DNA of 35,713 nucleotides from Rhodospirillales bacterium 69-11 (lineage in GTDB: Bacteria > Pseudomonadota > Alphaproteobacteria > Acetobacterales > Acetobacteraceae). Position 1 is the first letter of the stretch. Every line of letters starts with the position of its first letter. The DNA lies in the NCBI GenBank assembly GCA_001898425.1, contig MKTV01000005.1:120163-155875 (forward strand), read 5' to 3'. The translations under genes were made by a program, and so were the position numbers. The notes under the pieces were generated by a model. It ran no database searches. It was not told where the DNA came from and was given only the letters and a program-made list of their open reading frames with translations. Positions 2,113 to 31,133 of the stretch are shown piece by piece.

Positions 2113-2154
2113 TTCACCACGGAGAAGACGGAGGACCACGGAGGGCCACAGGAG
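2113..2154 (+). repeat. 42-bp element, copy 1 (reads FTTEKTEDHGGPQE)
   Basis: This 42-base GGAG/CCAC-rich element recurs in inverted orientation at 2902-2943 with 35 of 42 positions identical by hand alignment. In the frame of the GxxExxY gene downstream it reads FTTEKTEDHGGPQE without a stop, directly joining the coding region. Whether it is translated depends on whether the gene starts at GTG 2164 or at a TTG near 2104. Confidence 0.8.
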
Positions 2155-2163
2155 CCGTGCGGC

Positions 2164-2538
2164 GTGCTGGAGGCGGGGGAACTCACGGAACGGATCATCT
2201 ATCATGCGATCGAGGTGCATCGGGCGACGGGGCCCGGTCTGCTGGAGTCCGTCTACGAACTCTGCCTGTGCCACGAGCTGCACGACGCAGGCGTCCCGTT
2301 CGAACGTCAGGCGGTGGTTCCGGTCGTCTACAAAGGGCGTCGGATCTCACAGGGGTTCCGGGCCGATATCGCGGTCGCGCGGGCCGTCATCGTCGAGGTC
2401 AAGGCGGTCGCGGCGATCCTTCCGGCACACGAGGCACAGGTGCAGACTTATCTGCGGATGTCCGGGCTGCGGATCGGGCTCATCATGAACTTCGCAGCCA
2501 CGCGTCTCGTCGATGGCCTGCGGCGCTTCATTGTGTAG
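2164..2538 (+). CDS. GxxExxY protein (PD-(D/E)xK nuclease-like fold)
   Basis: A 124-residue protein with the family signature GLLESVY (GxxExxY) at about residues 25-31, preceded by ELTERIIYHAIEVHRATGPG. Further on, the stretch FRADIAV supplies an acidic residue and VIVEVKA an ExK, which together resemble the D...ExK arrangement of the PD-(D/E)xK superfamily. The family is widespread, often in odd genomic spots, and its biological role is not established. GTG 2164 is preferred because AGGAG lies 9 bases upstream and the length then matches the family; a TTG near 2104 would add the translated repeat FTTEKTEDHGGPQE. It is flanked by inverted copies of a 42-bp element and has no functional link to its neighbours, so it may have arrived as a unit. 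Confidence 0.8.
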   Translation: MLEAGELTERIIYHAIEVHRATGPGLLESVYELCLCHELHDAGVPFERQAVVPVVYKGRRISQGFRADIAVARAVIVEVKAVAAILPAHEAQVQTYLRMSGLRIGLIMNFAATRLVDGLRRFIV

Positions 2539-2757
2539 GCGAATCCGTGCGCCCGACGGAGCGTTCGGTCGCCTCGCGGCTGAGCCATTTGCAGGGACCT
2601 CGAATGCACCGGCGCTGCACGAGCCCTGACCAACTTCGCACACGCATGGAACCGAGGCACGCGCGTGGAACCGCTCGGTTTCCAGAATCCAAACACGCCT
2701 TCGTCGTCGCTTCGATGCCCGGCGGATCCCCGGTTCAAGCGCCCGCACGGTCGCCCC

Positions 2758-2869
2758 CGTCAGACGCCCGACTTGCCTGATCGATCGTCGAACGGCCGAC
2801 GCCTCAAGCGCCTCGTCGAACGCCCGACGCCCCAAGCCCCTCGCCGAACGCCCGACGCCACGAGCCCCG
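2758..2869. repeat. 28-bp tandem repeats (three clear copies plus one degenerate)
   Basis: Three head-to-tail 28-base units occupy 2786-2813, 2814-2841 and 2842-2869, each starting CG(T/C)CGAACG(G/C)CCGACGCC. The preceding 28 bases (2758-2785) look like a degraded copy and the array touches the 3' end of the glycosyltransferase gene at 2872. The whole gap 2539-2871 (333 bases) holds no convincing gene; apart from this array I see nothing in it. Confidence 0.75.
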
Positions 2870-2871
2870 CG

Positions 2872-4128
2872 TCAGATGCCGCTGACGAGCGAGCGCCCCG
2901 ACTCACGTGGCCCTCCGTGGCGCTCCGTGCCCTCCGTGGTGAACCGCTCCCCCCCGACCACCCGCCGGAACAGGGCGAGCTGACCCGCCGTCGTCTCGTC
3001 CCAGCTCATCCCTTCCGCGAACGCCCGCGTCGCGCGCCGGTCGGGCGCCGCCGCGAGCAGGCGGCGAATCGTGGCCGCCAGCGCGTCGGCCGTTATCTCC
3101 GGCGCGATCAGCCCGGCCGCGGGAACGCGCACCACCTCGGGGTTGCCCCAGATCGGGCTCGCGACCACCGGCGTCCCGCAGGCCATCGACTCCAGCAGCA
3201 CGTTTGCCCAGCCCTCCCGGCTGGAGGCGAGCACGGACGCGTCCGCCGCGCCGTACAGCGCCGGAAGATCGTGGTGCGGCACCGCCCCCAGCAGCCGCAC
3301 GCGATCACCGAGGCCCAGGCCCGCGATCATCGCCTCGAGCCTCGGACGGTCGGGTCCCTCGCCCGCGATCAGGAGCGTCGTGCCGGGCAGGGACGCGATC
3401 GCGGCGATGGTGCGGTGATGGCCCTTCCGCTCGATCAGCCCGCCCACGGACACGAGCGTCGGTCCCGCGACCCCCAAGGCGGCGCGGGCCGCCTCGCGGT
3501 CGACGGGCGGGCGGAACAGCGCCGTATCGACGCCGTTGCGCAGCACCGTGACCTTCCCGGGCGGCGCGCCCAGGTCGAGCAGCGCATCCCGCAGCGCCCC
3601 GCTCACGGCGACCAGCGCGCTGGCGCCGTCGATCGCGGCGCGGATCAGCCGCCGCGGCAGGCGGTAGCGGGGGATCAGGTTCACGTCCGTCCCGCGCGCG
3701 GTCACGACCACGGGCAGGCCGAAGCGACGCCCCAGCCACACCGCCGCGACCCCGTCCGGGTAGAGGTAATGCGCGTCGATCGCGTCGACGCCGGTCCCGT
3801 CCGCCAGCAGCCGCGCGAGCACCGGCCGCATGGCACGATAGAGCAGCCACGGGGCCGCGCTCATGCCGATGCGGGGGATCACCGGGAAGCGCGGGTGCAA
3901 CACGCGCAGCCCGTGGCGGACCTCCTCCTCCGGCACGCGGGCATGCTGCGCCCAGCGGCCGAACCGGGGATCGCGGCTGGGAAACCAGGGCACCGGTGCC
4001 ACGACGGTGCTGTTGGCGCCGCCGCTCGCGACGAGGTGGCGCAGCCGGTTCTCGACGAAGATGCCGTGATTCGGCTGCGCCGCATTCGGGTAGAGGCCGG
4101 AGAAGGTGAGCAGCCGCAACGGAGGCAT
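2872..4128 (-). CDS. GT4-family glycosyltransferase, XrtA locus
   Basis: A 418-residue GT-B fold enzyme with no membrane segment. The N-terminal half has the acceptor-side motif GLYPNAAQPNHGIFVENR and the C-terminal half has VLRNGVDTALFRP, a nucleotide-sugar region (SVGGLIERKGHHR) and the donor-binding stretch SREGWANVLLESMACGTPVV, where the first E and the LLE acidic residue match the E-x7-E motif. It should add a hexose from a nucleotide sugar to the lipid-linked repeat unit on the cytoplasmic face. It is the last gene of the leftward arm, 9 bases after the PrsT stop. Oddity: the last 23 residues (396-418) are not family sequence; 396-409 are translated from the 42-bp repeat element, so the original C-terminus seems to have been replaced or extended. 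Confidence 0.88.
   Translation of the reverse strand: MPPLRLLTFSGLYPNAAQPNHGIFVENRLRHLVASGGANSTVVAPVPWFPSRDPRFGRWAQHARVPEEEVRHGLRVLHPRFPVIPRIGMSAAPWLLYRAMRPVLARLLADGTGVDAIDAHYLYPDGVAAVWLGRRFGLPVVVTARGTDVNLIPRYRLPRRLIRAAIDGASALVAVSGALRDALLDLGAPPGKVTVLRNGVDTALFRPPVDREAARAALGVAGPTLVSVGGLIERKGHHRTIAAIASLPGTTLLIAGEGPDRPRLEAMIAGLGLGDRVRLLGAVPHHDLPALYGAADASVLASSREGWANVLLESMACGTPVVASPIWGNPEVVRVPAAGLIAPEITADALAATIRRLLAAAPDRRATRAFAEGMSWDETTAGQLALFRRVVGGERFTTEGTERHGGPRESGRSLVSGI
2902..2943 (-). repeat. 42-bp element, copy 2 (translated as FTTEGTERHGGPRE)
   Basis: Inverted partner of the element at 2113-2154, 35 of 42 bases identical. It lies inside the 3' end of the glycosyltransferase gene and is read in frame as residues 396-409 of that protein. 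Both copies are therefore in the same reading phase relative to the peptide they would encode. Confidence 0.8.
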
Positions 4129-14486: not shown

Positions 14487-15461
14487 ATGACGGATCCAGG
14501 ACGTCCCCATCTCGCGGAACGCGTCGCGGCACGCATGCGCGCGGACGGCACGCTCGATCCGTCCGCGGCGCAGCTGCTGCCGGCCGGTGCGCCATCCGGT
14601 GCGTCGGACAGCGGCGACGATGGCGACGGCGGCGGCGCGGAGGCTTCCATGCGCGCCGCCGCCGATGCCGGCGCCACTGATCCGGCCCCCGCGTTCCAGG
14701 CTGCCGCGTTCCAGGCCGGCGGAGACCTGCCCTACGACACGCCCCGCGTCGACGCGATCGCGCTGGAGCGCGCGGGCATGGTCGACTGGTCGCGCACCCG
14801 CAGCCGCATCTCGGAGGAGTTCCGCCTCGCGCAGCGGCAGATCCTGCGCACCGCCTTCGGACCGGACGCGCAACTCGGCTTCTCGAACCTGCTGATGGTG
14901 ACGAGCGCGCGGCCGGGCGAGGGCAAGAGCTTCGTCGCGGTCAACCTCGCCGGCTCGATCGCGCGGCAGGGGGACAATTCCGTCCTGCTGATCGACACCG
15001 ACTCGAAGCGCGATTCCTTCTGCTACGGCCTCGGCCTGGCGGAGGCGCCAGGACTCCTGGACCTGGTCGCCGACCCGCGGCTCGATCCCGCCGGCATGAT
15101 CGTCAAGACGCCCATCCCCCGTCTCTCGATCCTGCCGGTGGGGCGGGAGCGGGAACGCAGCGCCGAACTCTTCTCGACCAAGGAGATGACCCGCCTCGTC
15201 CAGACCCTGGGCCGCCGTTACGCCGACCGGCTGCTGATCCTGGATGCGCCGCCCTGCCTGTCCACCTCCGACCCCGCGGTGCTGGCCCCGGTGGTCGGAC
15301 AGGTGCTGTTCGTGGTGGAGGCCGACCGGACCCAGCGGGAAGAGGTCGAGGCGTCGCTCGACCTGATCCAGGCCTGCCCGTCGATCACGCTCGTCCTGAA
15401 CAAGCAGCAGATCTCCTCGCGCTACACGTTCGGGGCGTACTCGTCCTACTACTCGTCCTGA
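14487..15461 (+). CDS. XrtA-system tyrosine autokinase (BY-kinase)
   Basis: A 324-residue cytoplasmic P-loop kinase of the bacterial tyrosine kinase type. Walker A is SARPGEGKS (140-148), Walker A' VLLIDTDSKR (166-175) and Walker B LLILDAPP (249-256). The first 100 residues are acidic, G/A-rich and probably disordered. The C-terminus ends in a tyrosine cluster (Y313, Y318, Y321, Y322: YTFGAYSSYYSS), the site of autophosphorylation in this family. It should cycle between phosphorylated and free states to control the co-polymerase encoded just upstream. Start ATG 14487; the preceding seven-codon frame from 14470 overlaps it by 4 bases and may couple translation weakly. Confidence 0.92.
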   Translation: MTDPGRPHLAERVAARMRADGTLDPSAAQLLPAGAPSGASDSGDDGDGGGAEASMRAAADAGATDPAPAFQAAAFQAGGDLPYDTPRVDAIALERAGMVDWSRTRSRISEEFRLAQRQILRTAFGPDAQLGFSNLLMVTSARPGEGKSFVAVNLAGSIARQGDNSVLLIDTDSKRDSFCYGLGLAEAPGLLDLVADPRLDPAGMIVKTPIPRLSILPVGRERERSAELFSTKEMTRLVQTLGRRYADRLLILDAPPCLSTSDPAVLAPVVGQVLFVVEADRTQREEVEASLDLIQACPSITLVLNKQQISSRYTFGAYSSYYSS

Positions 15462-15474
15462 GCGGATCGTCCCG

Positions 15475-17202
15475 GTGCGACGATCACGGTCCCTCCGCTG
15501 CCGCCCCGCCATGATCGGCGGAACCGCCGCCGTACTGGCGCTGGCGGCCCCTGGGGGCGCCGGCGCCTTCCCCTACCTCGATCCGACCAACGCGGAGACC
15601 AGCCCGGCCGTCACCGATCTCAGGCCGGTCGAGACGCAGGATCTGCGCCGCCAGTTGCAGCTGTCGGAAGGCATCGCCCCGCCGCCCGGCGGCGGCTGGA
15701 CCATCGTCCCCCGCCTCGAGATCGACGAAGCCGTCAACGACAACATCTTCCAGCTCGGACGTCCCCGCCGCGCCGACCTGGTCACCTACGTCACGCCATC
15801 CCTCGCGATCGCGGCCGACACGTCCCACCTGACGCTCACCCTGGACTGGGCGCCCAGCATGGCGCTGTACCTGCAGAACGGGTCGCAGAACCTGCTCACG
15901 CAGCAGCTCTCCACCGTCGGGCTGCTGACGCTGGTGCCCGATCGGTTCTACGTCGACCTGCGCGCCGCCGCTGCCGTACAGGCGACCAACGGCGGGTTTG
16001 CGGGCGCGGGCGCACTGGCCCTCGCCAACCCCTCCGGCGGCGTGGGCGCGGCCGGGTCGGGCGCCGCAGGCTTGGGCCTCGCCAGGAACAACACCAGCCA
16101 GACGTTCAGCGCGGGGGTCTCCCCCTACACGATCGGACGGCTGGGCGGGGCCGGCGACTACAAGATCGGCGCCTCGGTGAACGTCGCCCACGTCGATACC
16201 GTCGGGCGCGGGACGGGCCCGTACGCCCTCGGCGCCGCCAGCGGCGCGCAGACCCTGGTGACGACCGAACAGCTCGCGCGGTTCAGCAGCGGCGACACGC
16301 TCGACCGCGTGCAGGACGTGCTCACGATCGACCTCAGCCAGTCGAGCGGCTCCTACGACCGGACGAGCATCTTCGGCCAGCCGGTGCCGAACACCTCGAC
16401 CTCTTCGACCCGCGAGACGGTGAGCAACCAGGTGACCTGGCGGTGGGACGAGCATGTCGCGGTGTTCGCGTCCCTGGGCTGGGAATCGCTCCGCTATACC
16501 GGGACGAACGGCTACAGCCTGGACGAGGCGACCTGGAGCATCGGGACGACGCTGTCGCCCGATCCCGACAGTTTCCTCACGCTCAGCTACGGTCACCAGA
16601 ACGGCGCCAACTCCTTGCGCCTGAGCGGGCGATGGGCGGTCACCGGCCGCACCACGCTGACCGCGAGCTACGGCAGTTCGGTCGGGACCCAGCTGCAGAA
16701 CCTGCAGAGCCGGCTGAACCTCGCCGCCGCGAACGCGTCCGGCGGGCTGGTCGATGCGCAGACCGGCGGCTCCCTCGTCGACGGCACGTCGCTGCTGCCG
16801 ATCCAGCCGGGCGTCTACCGGTTCGACACGTTCAGCCTGAACGGCACCACCGCGTGGGATCGCGACCTCGTCACCCTCGCCCTCGGCTTCACCCGCCAGA
16901 CGAATGTCGGGTCGGGCCTCGGCGCCAACACCGCGAGCGAGACGAAGTATCTGAGCGCGCAATGGCGCCATGACCTGTCGCCCGTGACGAGTTTCACCGC
17001 CGGCATGTCGTACAGCCGGGTGGGCTATCTCACCGCCGGCGGGAACACGCGCTACGTCGTGGCGAGCCTGCTCGTGCAGCAACGGCTGAACGAGACGCTC
17101 ACGGCCTTCGGCCGCTACCTGTTCGTCGACCAGGCCTCGGTGATCCCGAACCAGACGATGTACCAGAACGTCGCCCTGGTCGGCGTTAGCAAGCAGTTCT
17201 GA
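15475..17202 (+). CDS. XrtA-system outer-membrane beta-barrel protein (TIGR03016-like)
   Basis: A 575-residue exported protein starting at GTG 15475, with a signal peptide ending GGAGA before FPYLDP. The mature part is rich in alternating polar/hydrophobic strands (for example TLTLDWAPSMALYLQNG, TLTASYGSSVGTQLQNL, SFTAGMSYSRVGYLTAG) and ends with F, the usual last residue of outer-membrane barrels recognised by the BAM complex. A G/A-rich insertion (about 180-205) probably forms a loop. The family occurs in exosortase A polysaccharide loci and is thought to serve as the outer-membrane pore or secretin-like partner. An ATG at 15511 is possible but would remove the basic n-region. Confidence 0.85.
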   Translation: MRRSRSLRCRPAMIGGTAAVLALAAPGGAGAFPYLDPTNAETSPAVTDLRPVETQDLRRQLQLSEGIAPPPGGGWTIVPRLEIDEAVNDNIFQLGRPRRADLVTYVTPSLAIAADTSHLTLTLDWAPSMALYLQNGSQNLLTQQLSTVGLLTLVPDRFYVDLRAAAAVQATNGGFAGAGALALANPSGGVGAAGSGAAGLGLARNNTSQTFSAGVSPYTIGRLGGAGDYKIGASVNVAHVDTVGRGTGPYALGAASGAQTLVTTEQLARFSSGDTLDRVQDVLTIDLSQSSGSYDRTSIFGQPVPNTSTSSTRETVSNQVTWRWDEHVAVFASLGWESLRYTGTNGYSLDEATWSIGTTLSPDPDSFLTLSYGHQNGANSLRLSGRWAVTGRTTLTASYGSSVGTQLQNLQSRLNLAAANASGGLVDAQTGGSLVDGTSLLPIQPGVYRFDTFSLNGTTAWDRDLVTLALGFTRQTNVGSGLGANTASETKYLSAQWRHDLSPVTSFTAGMSYSRVGYLTAGGNTRYVVASLLVQQRLNETLTAFGRYLFVDQASVIPNQTMYQNVALVGVSKQF

Positions 17203-17218
17203 GGCAGGGAGCCACGCG

Positions 17219-18175
17219 ATGTACCAGGGCTTCTACGGCTTCGAGACGATCCCCTTCCTGCTCACGCCGGACAGCCGCTTCTTCTTCGGCTCCGCCGGCC
17301 ACAGCCGCGCCATCGCGCATCTCGTCTACGGGCTGGCGCAGCAGGAAGGGTTCGTCGTCATCACCGGCGACGTGGGGGCGGGCAAGACCACGCTGGTGGA
17401 GCAGCTTCGCACCCAGCTCGACCCGGCGGCCTACGCGCTGGCGCGCGTCGTCACCACGCAGGTGAACGGCGACGACCTGCTGCGCCTCGCGCTCGCCGAT
17501 TTCGGCGTGGACGCGGAACCCGGGATCGACAAGGCGACGCTGCTGCGCCGCTTCGAGGCCTTCATGCGCACGTGCCGAGCGGCCGATCGACGTTGCGTGC
17601 TGGTGGTCGACGAGGTGCAGGCGCTGTCTCTCGCGGCACTCGAGGAACTGCGCATGCTGTCCAACGTCACGGTGGACGGAAGCGCCTGCCTGCAGATCGT
17701 GCTGCTCGGTCAGCCGCAGTTCCGCCCGACCCTCGCGCGCGCCGATCTCGAGCAGCTGCGTCAGCGCGTGCTCGCTTCCTATCATCTCGGGCCGCTCGAT
17801 GCGGCGGAGACGCGGCGCTACGTGGAGCACCGGCTGCGCGTTGCCGGATGGCGGGAAGATCCCGCGTGGGATACGGCGGCCTTCGACGCGCTGCATCGCC
17901 ACACGGGCGGCATCCCGCGCCGCATCAACACGCTCTGCGGCCGCGTGCTGCTCTATGGCGCGCTGGAGGAGGCGCACCGCATCACCGCAGCGATGGTCGA
18001 TCTCGCCGCGGGCGAACTCGCGCAGGACCTGGGTCTTGGCGCAGCCGCGGTGGCGGCGGCGGAGGCCGGATCGGCGCTGCAGCGGATCGACGCGCTGGAG
18101 GACACCGTGGCGCGGCACGACCGCGTCATGCGGCGGCTGCTCGACCTGCTGAACGCGATGCAGGAGCGGCCATGA
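17219..18175 (+). CDS. XrtA-associated ATPase (ExeA/GspA-like AAA)
   Basis: A 318-residue cytoplasmic ATPase. It begins MYQGFYGFETIPF, typical of the ExeA-like group, with Walker A GDVGAGKTT (50-58), Walker B VLVVDE (127-132) and the downstream sensor GGIPRRINTLC. The C-terminal 50 residues (around AGSALQRIDALEDTVARHD) look like a coiled coil. It matches the pepcterm ATPase family (TIGR03015). Its exact role is not established; by analogy with ExeA it may help assemble an envelope complex. The stop overlaps the next start by 4 bases (ATGA), beginning a chain of four such overlaps. Confidence 0.92.
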   Translation: MYQGFYGFETIPFLLTPDSRFFFGSAGHSRAIAHLVYGLAQQEGFVVITGDVGAGKTTLVEQLRTQLDPAAYALARVVTTQVNGDDLLRLALADFGVDAEPGIDKATLLRRFEAFMRTCRAADRRCVLVVDEVQALSLAALEELRMLSNVTVDGSACLQIVLLGQPQFRPTLARADLEQLRQRVLASYHLGPLDAAETRRYVEHRLRVAGWREDPAWDTAAFDALHRHTGGIPRRINTLCGRVLLYGALEEAHRITAAMVDLAAGELAQDLGLGAAAVAAAEAGSALQRIDALEDTVARHDRVMRRLLDLLNAMQERP

Positions 18176-24036: not shown

Positions 24037-25106
24037 TCGCGACCTGCGCGCCGGTGCGCGACTGGGACACGCTGGAGGTGCGCTGGCGCGCGCTGGAGGC
24101 GCGCGTGCCGGCCTCGTTCTTCCAGAGCTGGACCTGGGTCGGCTGCCTTGGTCCCGAACGCTTCCCCGACCCGTGGCTGCTGGAGCTGCGCCGCGCGGGG
24201 GAGACGGTGGGGCTCGCGTTGTGGAACCGCCGTGCCGGCCCGGTCGTGCCGAGCTTCGCGCTGCAGGAGGCGGGGATGGCGGCGCTGGACACGCCGTATG
24301 TCGAGCATAACGGGATCCTCGGCGCGGCGGCGCCCGCGGCGTTCCGCGCCATGCTGCGGGGCGTCCGTCCGCGCCGCCTGGTGCTGAGCGGCATCGACGA
24401 TGCCACGCTCGCAGCGGTGCGCGATGCGACGCGCTGGGTTCGGGTGCTGCGCAGCCAGCCCGCGCCGTTCCTCGAACTCGGGCGCGATCCGCTCGCCGGG
24501 CGCAGCGCCAACACCCGCGCGCAGCTTCGCCGGTCGGAGCGTGCCTACGGGACGGTCGCGGTGAGCCGCGCGGCAACCGAGGCCGAGGCCTGGGCGATGC
24601 TGGACGAGCTCGCGGCGCTGCACCAGGCGCGCTGGGAGGCGCGGGGGCAACCGGGCGCGTTCGTCCGCCCATTCTTCCGCCGGTTCCATCGCGCGCTGAT
24701 CGCGGCCGGGCTGCCGCGGGGCGAGATCGACCTGCTGCGGGTCACCGGCGATGGTGCGCTGGTCGGCCTGCTCTACAATTTCCGCTACCGCGGTGTGGCC
24801 TACGCCTACCAGGGAGGGTTCGCCTACGAGGACGCGTCCGGCGCGCGGAAGCCGGGCCTGACCTGCCACCTTGCGGCGGTCCGGCACGCTGCCGCCGCGG
24901 GCCTGGTTCGGTACGACTTCCTGGCCGGGGACGCGCAGTACAAGCGCAGCCTCTCGGACGGCGCGACGATGCTGCACTGGGTGGAGGCCGGTCCCGGCAC
25001 GCTGCCCGCAGGACTGGCCCGCGCGCTCCCCGCAGGACTGGCCCGCGCGCTCCCCGCAGAACTGGCCCGCGCGCTCCCCGCGCGACTGCCCCGCATGCTC
25101 GGATGA
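24015..25106 (+). CDS. FemAB/GNAT-like transferase with repeat-encoded tail
   Basis: A 363-residue protein of the BioF2-like/CelD acetyltransferase group. Conserved phrases are SFFQSWTWVG, a central RSANTRAQLRRSERAYG, and YDFLAGDAQYKRSL near the C-terminus, where the YDF...YKR motif belongs to the second GNAT half. The likely start is GTG 24015, overlapping the upstream glycosyltransferase by 22 bases; GTG 24054 is an alternative. It may attach an acyl or amino-acyl group to the polysaccharide or a precursor (inference). The C-terminus is odd: four 24-base tandem repeats (25002-25097) add the peptide LPAGLARA repeated four times, outside the fold. Confidence 0.8.
   Translation: MGRIGDLIATCAPVRDWDTLEVRWRALEARVPASFFQSWTWVGCLGPERFPDPWLLELRRAGETVGLALWNRRAGPVVPSFALQEAGMAALDTPYVEHNGILGAAAPAAFRAMLRGVRPRRLVLSGIDDATLAAVRDATRWVRVLRSQPAPFLELGRDPLAGRSANTRAQLRRSERAYGTVAVSRAATEAEAWAMLDELAALHQARWEARGQPGAFVRPFFRRFHRALIAAGLPRGEIDLLRVTGDGALVGLLYNFRYRGVAYAYQGGFAYEDASGARKPGLTCHLAAVRHAAAAGLVRYDFLAGDAQYKRSLSDGATMLHWVEAGPGTLPAGLARALPAGLARALPAELARALPARLPRMLG
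25002..25097 (+). repeat. 24-bp tandem repeats encoding LPAGLARA x4
   Basis: Four head-to-tail copies (25002-25025, 25026-25049, 25050-25073, 25074-25097); the first three differ at one or two positions and the fourth is more divergent. A fifth, shortened copy follows across the stop codon (about 25098-25118). The period is a multiple of three, so copy-number change would lengthen or shorten the protein tail without a frameshift. Confidence 0.85.
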
Positions 25107-30905: not shown

Positions 30906-30992
30906 ATGGCCGGCCTTGGGCCGGCCATCCATGACTTCTGTTGCTCGCAGGTCTTGAGGAAAGTCGTGGATGACCGGGCCAAGCCCGGTCAT
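30906..30992. repeat. REP-like doublet of two inverted stem-loops
   Basis: Two palindromes with perfect 10-bp stems and 3-base loops lie at 30906-30928 (loop TTG) and 30970-30992 (loop CAA). They and their flanks (GTC before, CCATGAC/CCACGAC after) are the same element in opposite orientation, separated by about 41 bases. This is the layout of REP doublets found between genes in many Alpha- and Gammaproteobacteria; here it follows the binding protein gene and could also end its transcript. Confidence 0.7.
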
Positions 30993-31133
30993 GACACGGC
31001 CCCGCCAAGCTCGGTCCTGACACGGTCCCGCCAAGCTCGGTCCTGACACGGTCCCGCCAAGCCCGGTCATGACACGTTCCTGCCAAACCCGGTCATGACA
31101 CGGTCGGGCCCAGCCTGCTCGTGACCGGGCGTC
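30978..31133. repeat. 26-bp tandem array derived from the REP-like element
   Basis: Five close copies of 26 bases start at 30978, 31004, 31030, 31056 and 31082 (GCCAAGC(C/T)CGGTC(A/C)TGACAC as common core) and a sixth degenerate copy at 31108-31133 runs into the stop codon of the DUF805 gene. Each unit equals the right half of the second stem-loop plus a short linker, so the array seems to have grown from it. Units adjoin directly with no unique spacers. The gap 30843-31131 contains no gene. Confidence 0.85.

Follow-up and report, generated by a model that had tools for sequence, protein, structure and literature searches.

The GxxExxY gene near the start of the window (here the whole stretch of 35,713 nucleotides analysed, from contig MKTV01000005.1 of Rhodospirillales bacterium 69-11) probably belongs to a mobile-element-like unit, which to judge from its sequence is composed of one small PD-(D/E)xK nuclease gene and two inverted arms of iterated 7-base words. 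On the best reading of the data, GxxExxY supplies the nuclease to a mobile system that resembles REPIN/RAYT and has iteron ends, and we infer that the protein itself does the moving. This reading draws on the layout of the unit and its recurrence across phyla, the agreement between its two ends, the co-inheritance of words and protein clades, similar units dispersed among unrelated sites, one site where the unit is present in some genomes and absent from others, purifying selection on the gene and the occurrence of gene-less elements. The locus in the window has the following features:

2113..2168, plus strand: left arm, iterated words TTCACCACGGAG-AAG-ACGGAG-GAC-CACGGAG-GGC-CAC with a period of 9-10; outer edge at 2113
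2164..2538, plus strand: GxxExxY gene, 124 aa, predicted PD-(D/E)xK fold; D68, E78-x-K80, Q92-x3-Y96
2539..2901, no strand: spacer from the gene to the right arm; in compact relatives it is shorter by about 340 bp
2785..2873, plus strand: 28-bp tandem array of 3.2 copies, within the spacer
2888..2943, minus strand: right arm, an inverted copy of the left arm; outer edge at 2943
2872..4128, minus strand: family-4 glycosyltransferase ORF, whose last 23 codons (FTTEGTERHGGPRESGRSLVSGI) begin at the outer edge of the right arm

Both arms consist of 7-base words, CACGGAG or close variants of it, that follow one another at a spacing of 9-10 bp. In a repeat search of the first 6 kb no inverted pair was longer than the one formed by the arms (2113-2168 and 2888-2943), which has 56 nt and 77% complementarity; the next-longest pair has 41 nt and 71%. 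The first-pass annotation had described two 42-base elements in opposite orientation, and our count from the printed sequence agrees, with 35 of 42 positions identical between the cores 2113-2154 and 2902-2943. It was also right to place a PD-(D/E)xK-like GxxExxY gene between them, as the protein carries the conserved residues and scores 136.3 bits with TIGR04256 (cut-off 35) and 131.7 bits with PF13366 (cut-off 22). Based on the motif M-L-x4-LT of relatives, translation likely starts at the GTG at 2164, and the stop codon is at 2536-2538. With 831 bp the window unit is the longest of the 36 top-ranked units and its spacer is unusually long, with 417 bp separating the HMM match from the right outer edge. 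At its outer edge the left arm has TTCACC, which resembles the unit edges in dispersed copies. Ten ORFs of at least 50 aa overlap the block, and four others than GxxExxY gave no Pfam match up to E 0.1.

The right edge of the block had been placed inside the glycosyltransferase gene, and the ORF indeed runs through the right arm and ends in the peptide FTTEGTERHGG... (the left arm, in the GxxExxY frame, encodes the similar peptide FTTEKTEDHGG). In a comparison of 19 homologues the alignments end at residue 391-405 of 418, with a stop at most 7 residues past the alignment end in 15 and 11-30 residues further in the other four. Because the homologues align only up to this point, the right arm adds a C-terminal tail and does not split the enzyme, and the window unit therefore occupies the 3' end of the glycosyltransferase gene. 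The sequence 3' of the glycosyltransferase stop varies among the homologues printed, so that none of the 19 offers a clean empty site for the window unit.

The assembly that contains the window (6.48 Mb in 124 contigs) has two GxxExxY genes, and the second, on contig C65, also lies between inverted repeats, but of a different sequence (GATTCAACACAGAGTTGAGGCGAG...). With up to 3 mismatches, TTCACCACGGAGNNNACGGAG matches this genome at 33 sites, a large share of which are single sites at 3 mismatches, while the same pattern read backwards, used as a control, is found at none. Several of these sites pair inward without a gene, over roughly 150-420 bp. Among eleven such gene-less pairs compared, six match the arms of the window unit (local score 51-74, versus at most 19 against the arms on C65) and the other five make up a separate group; the gene-less elements of this genome have arms in common, not interiors. 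Since gene-less pairs were found in the same genome, the block can no longer be read as a unique cassette. The first-pass annotation had named wide occurrence of the element without GxxExxY genes as a refutation of its proposal; the element does occur without them, but as inward pairs that resemble non-autonomous relatives.

GxxExxY genes were detected in 32 of the 59 genomes searched, within the genus in 29/33 (up to 32 matches per genome, fragments included), and in 17/289 genomes drawn from its class. They are also widespread beyond it: at least 574 relatives were confirmed in a scan with the window's clade, of which 80, mostly from metagenome assemblies, were kept and 74 had enough flank. 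By record title the kept relatives come from Acidobacteria, Planctomycetes, Bacteroidetes, Chloroflexi, Cyanobacteria, Verrucomicrobia, several proteobacterial classes and others; no arms were seen at a locus titled Methanothrix. Among 72,556 plasmid records only 6 contain a relative of the window's protein, and plasmids were for this reason rejected for finding empty sites at strain level.

The arrangement of the gene between inverted repeats recurs in these collections. Among 72 loci of relatives, 68 had enough flank for the inverted-repeat test; in 25 of them the best upstream-downstream repeat scored above the 99% point of mismatched-locus pairs, and in 43 it did not. For the 74 named loci across phyla the best inverted repeat was above the 95% point of mismatched pairs in 48 and above the 99% point in 28. 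By a fixed word rule the gene has inward-pointing words to its left and to its right in 51/74 named loci (displaced controls: 2/503) and in 25/100 loci of relatives and class members (displaced controls: 0/534), which answers in the affirmative the earlier expectation that the repeat would flank GxxExxY genes elsewhere. Over 183 units the words point inward in 77 and outward in 10. The 36 top-ranked units (score at least 27) include 24 that span 427-509 bp and 12 that span 542-831 bp. A constant element sequence at GxxExxY genes is not what we see, for the words differ between units; it is the layout, the word period and the left-right agreement that are conserved, and the repeat sequence is not constant.

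The words seen are CACAGAG, CACGGAG, CGCAGAG, CACGAAG, CGCAAAG, CACCAAG, CACGACG and CGCAACG, while CGCGGAT and CGCAGAT belong mostly to another protein clade. A word class could be assigned to 109 of the 183 units; the remaining 74 include a GxxExxY sub-clade without words, and the arms are therefore not universal with GxxExxY. When the 103 of these 109 units that have no stops were placed on the protein tree, the word class changed 4 times (200 shuffles: mean 17.2, minimum 14). The same count gave 2 changes for 37 relatives and class members (shuffled 12.6), and a single change for 27 units of the genus, 14 of class AG and 13 of class AT (shuffled mean 9.0, minimum 5). Because arms and gene are linked, this tracking demonstrates co-inheritance only. 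The co-variation of words and protein could come from linkage alone. The protein presumably recognises the words of its own arms. The agreement between left and right arms needs something beyond linkage, such as pairing of the two ends: exact word identity is 0.648 in 77 units, compared with 0.169 when shuffled within class (maximum 0.273 of 1000), and 0.673 in 49 named units of the AG class (shuffled 0.165).

Mobility of the units is supported, as far as sequence comparison goes, by dispersal, by one filled and empty site and by gene-less elements. For instance, the units L107 (genome G010) and L123 (G015) are 81% alike over 528 bp, with a match that ends at most 35 bp from the arm edges and with unrelated flanks, and unit L082 has an 88% copy on contig C127 of G012 whose match ends at most 40 bp from the arms. 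The presence and absence of a unit at one site was seen for L105 of G008, for which ten genomes were searched. The site is filled in G008, G040, G006 (142 bp missing inside) and G045, where the gene is present and the left-arm region is interrupted by 2.7 kb of other DNA. The flanks occur without the unit in G022, where they abut, and in G010, G041 and G004, where they are close; the alignment places their junction in an intergenic region that is conserved, G004 being the least clear case. G005, G009 and G001 match one flank or part of the site only. The inserted stretch exceeds the 488-bp arm-to-arm unit by about 16 and about 55 bp, and is followed by a 16-bp direct repeat, the copies of which are 16 bp and about 55 bp away from the arms on their outer side; its motif is also found elsewhere in the region, and it may be an older promoter repeat.

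L105 gives the one empty site found. Of the clean empty sites that the first-pass annotation called for, a relative's unit thus provides one, and the site of the window unit itself provides none. The target duplication that it also called for was not seen as a general feature, since none of 74 units has a direct repeat of at least 8 bp within 25 bp of its ends, and the mean direct-repeat values at these ends resemble those of mismatched flanks, without excess. The suggestion of a small mobile or recombining cassette with the repeats as its ends is nevertheless supported by the recurring layout, the L105 site and the gene-less relatives. No empty site was found for L115 (flanking genes apart in relatives), L102 (one flank conserved, plus a 90-bp piece) or L100 (left gene conserved, right gene elsewhere). 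Beside the left gene of L100 there is a GxxExxY match in G040, G015 and G010. At L082 the flanks are 57 bp apart in G005, the difference being 1.5 kb; other DNA is therefore involved, and L082 was rejected as an empty site. Besides L105, none of eight indels in three syntenic contigs (G008:C7, G040:C213 and G006:C98) was a clean gain of an element. One of the eight is a CACAGAG element present in both genomes at different lengths, and in G040 an element of the CGCAGATGAA type is nested within one of the CACAGAG type.

By its conserved residues and fold the protein is a predicted PD-(D/E)xK nuclease. G-x-G, E and Y around the name motif, a D and E-x-K are invariant in sets of 26 and 60 sequences, and Q-x3-Y is invariant in the 26 and nearly so in the 60. 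The predicted structure (pLDDT 94.4, pTM 0.87) has as its best Foldseek match 4ic1 (SSO0001; E 1.2e-3), which we take to be a Cas4 nuclease, followed by LHK-Exo and lambda exonuclease, with TM-scores of about 0.5 and no match at E 0.001 or below. The model thus shares the fold class of Cas4 and lambda exonuclease and is not a close match to either. A sequence search of the PDB with the family profile gave no matches up to E 1. The dN/dS ratios of 0.09-0.20 in five pairs indicate that GxxExxY is under purifying selection. The open-access literature searched yielded no established function for GxxExxY and no description of a repeat-bounded GxxExxY unit, and the word strings matched there only papers that, by title, are not on bacterial genomes. 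The part of PMC8934634 that mentions GxxExxY does not treat its function there.

The main rival, which we regard as unlikely, holds that another enzyme, such as a resident transposase, or annealing at the replication fork moves the arms. In this view GxxExxY would be carried along as cargo, or would be a helper whose own task is a different one, such as nuclease action on competing DNA. The many gene-less elements per gene, the 74/183 units without assigned words and the lack of a target duplication are all compatible with it, and since Pfam recognised nothing in four further ORFs that overlap the block, another enzyme could supply the chemistry. Two observations in the genus speak against the rival: CGCRGATGAA sites occur in 23/29 genomes with GxxExxY and in 0/4 without it, and the word class tracks the GxxExxY clade within this one genus. 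For CACRGAG, the four genus genomes without GxxExxY have 1, 0, 0 and 8 sites (controls 2, 0, 3 and 2), the exception being G017 (84% complete), where 8 sites versus 2 in the control accompany no GxxExxY match and thus favour the rival. Also against the rival, GxxExxY recurs between arms in many phyla, although these loci were found by searching for GxxExxY.

The gene-less elements of two relatives bear on a second rival, in which the arms are single dispersed repeats that pair by chance and promote deletions, inversions and gene capture, with no dedicated mobile system. Genome G046 combines a single GxxExxY gene with 37 CGCRGATGAA sites (control 0); its six aligned gene-less elements of 152-237 bp each have an arm that over 32-34 nt shares 94-100% identity with an arm of the unit, and several of them are 70-75% alike over their full length. 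In G047, where the GxxExxY gene of the unit has an in-frame stop, three gene-less elements of 113-128 bp have arms that match the unit, and several elements there are alike over their full length at 78-87%. Two of the three keep the word order of the unit, including the third word CACGAAG, and folded as single strands they have z-scores of -14.7 and -10.8. Such recombination hot spots would suit the gene-less pairs of the window genome, which share arms and not interiors, and the near-identical copies L257 and L258, which differ in word number. They are hard to reconcile with the full-length likeness in G046 and G047, with the size of 427-509 bp in 24 of the 36 top-ranked units (the other 12 having 542-831 bp) and with the left-right concordance of words, and we therefore consider this explanation quite improbable. 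We give just as little credit to a stationary gene for a small nuclease, of a defence or toxin-antitoxin kind, with the arms as its operators or attenuators: iterated words at helical spacing do resemble protein-binding sites, and the fold is Cas4-like with a weak PADLOC match to Cas4b (E 0.06), but PADLOC gave no significant defence model, the arms are inverted at both ends of the gene, arm pairs exist without a gene, similar units lie at unrelated sites and one syntenic site is filled or empty.

If GxxExxY is, as we prefer to think, the enzyme that moves its own arms, several monomers may bind the words of one arm on one face of the helix, the period of 9-10 bp being about one turn. GxxExxY may also join or unpair the ends: the two arms would pair, or be extruded as a hairpin, at replication; the nuclease might cut at the TTNACC outer edges, and insertion at another place would leave no target duplication of fixed length. 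Pairs that lack the gene could be moved in trans, and mismatch repair of paired arms might keep the same words at both ends. A bolder proposal, which we put forward tentatively and with slightly more doubt than belief, makes GxxExxY proteins the enzymes of a so far nameless superfamily of bacterial mobile elements that crosses phyla. Each element would have one PD-(D/E)xK nuclease of 120 residues and iteron arms; words would change along with the enzyme, the two ends would evolve in concert, and gene-less hairpin elements would be moved in trans in swarms. The REPIN/RAYT way of life would then have been invented a second time, independently.

The likeness to REPIN/RAYT systems lies in a single enzyme gene with its own repeats nearby, in gene-less hairpin doublets elsewhere and in repeat groups that go with enzyme groups. 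In the sections of PMC3116915 that concern these points, REPIN doublets fold into hairpins, repeat groups go with RAYT groups and each RAYT is single copy. Gene-less, hairpin-forming inverted doublets are found here too (G047, z -14.7 and -10.8), and repeat type goes with enzyme type, for which linkage could also account. Nevertheless, GxxExxY is a predicted PD-(D/E)xK protein and not a tyrosine (Y1) transposase, and it is the only recognised gene between the arms. The left arm of the window, the one arm tested, consists of directly iterated words and is not a palindrome (fold z -0.33 versus shuffles), and up to 32 GxxExxY matches per genome contrast with the single-copy RAYT of the same sections of PMC3116915. 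Insertion sequences with their MITEs are similar in having terminal inverted repeats, one recognisable gene and short non-autonomous relatives that share the ends. They differ in that no transposase domain, DDE included, was recognised in GxxExxY or in the four other ORFs of the block, that the 74 units show no excess of target duplications and that the ends of different units are different words.

By both curated models (TIGR04256 and PF13366) the window protein is a member of the GxxExxY / PDDEXK_3 family, whose model names give the motif and the fold. With casposons (treated in part of PMC4046053) and Cas4-type nucleases it shares the Cas4-like predicted fold of a single protein. Neither a Cas1 nor a polymerase domain was recognised in the window block. 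Both belong to the gene content of casposons. Rpn / YhgA-like proteins are of the PD-(D/E)xK type, and we know of no iterated arms around their genes. They form a Pfam family (PF04754) different from that of GxxExxY (PF13366), and the relevant part of PMC5350276 presents them as studied for a part in DNA mobilisation.

Taken against the open-access literature searched, the unit looks like a previously unrecognised kind of mobile DNA. Now that the unit is defined, with its ends, its gene-less relatives and its matched words, one can test directly what GxxExxY does, that is, whether it binds, cuts and moves these sequences. If confirmed, the reading would give a name to a common class of bacterial repeats, would explain the recurrent CACNGAG and CGCNGATGAA words and would add a type of nuclease to those known to mobilise DNA.

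A second GxxExxY unit is present in the genome of the window, and the features considered here, from this and other genomes, are the following.

Window, 25000-25094: tandem array, 24 bp x 4.0
Window, 30978-31105: tandem array, 26 bp x 4.9
L033 (window's own assembly, G000:C65), 2324-2912: second GxxExxY unit of the genome
L316 (G000:C66), 15442-17329: two inward-facing pairs of CACGGAG words, 1.9 kb apart
L250 (Rhodopila globiformis DSM 161, G045:C139), 50490-53200: syntenic copy of the L105 unit of genome G008, with 2.7 kb of other DNA in its left-arm region
L257 and L258 (G045:C43 and C274), about 760-930: near-alike repeats of outward-pointing CGCAGATGAA words
L256 (G040:C140), 791-1325: CGCAGATGAA-word element within a CACAGAG-word element

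The arms of L033 differ in sequence from those of the window's unit, and their likeness to each other extends beyond the words on both sides (GTTCGTGCTGGA...GCTTTGATT); its G+C content is 48%, against 60-78% in most other elements compared in this assembly. No connection was seen between the two window arrays and the GxxExxY unit.

Iterated words are absent at the GxxExxY genes of several loci of the genus (Rhodopila, as inferred for the window's genome), for instance L060, L061, L084, L093 and L099, and TTAACC lies upstream in several loci of this type. L087 and L095 have no word class either, yet the unit region is common to both while their flanks are unrelated.

The number of words is unequal between the L257 and L258 copies. 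L316 may represent a larger element bearing cargo, and the nesting at L256 is an insertion of one element type into the other.
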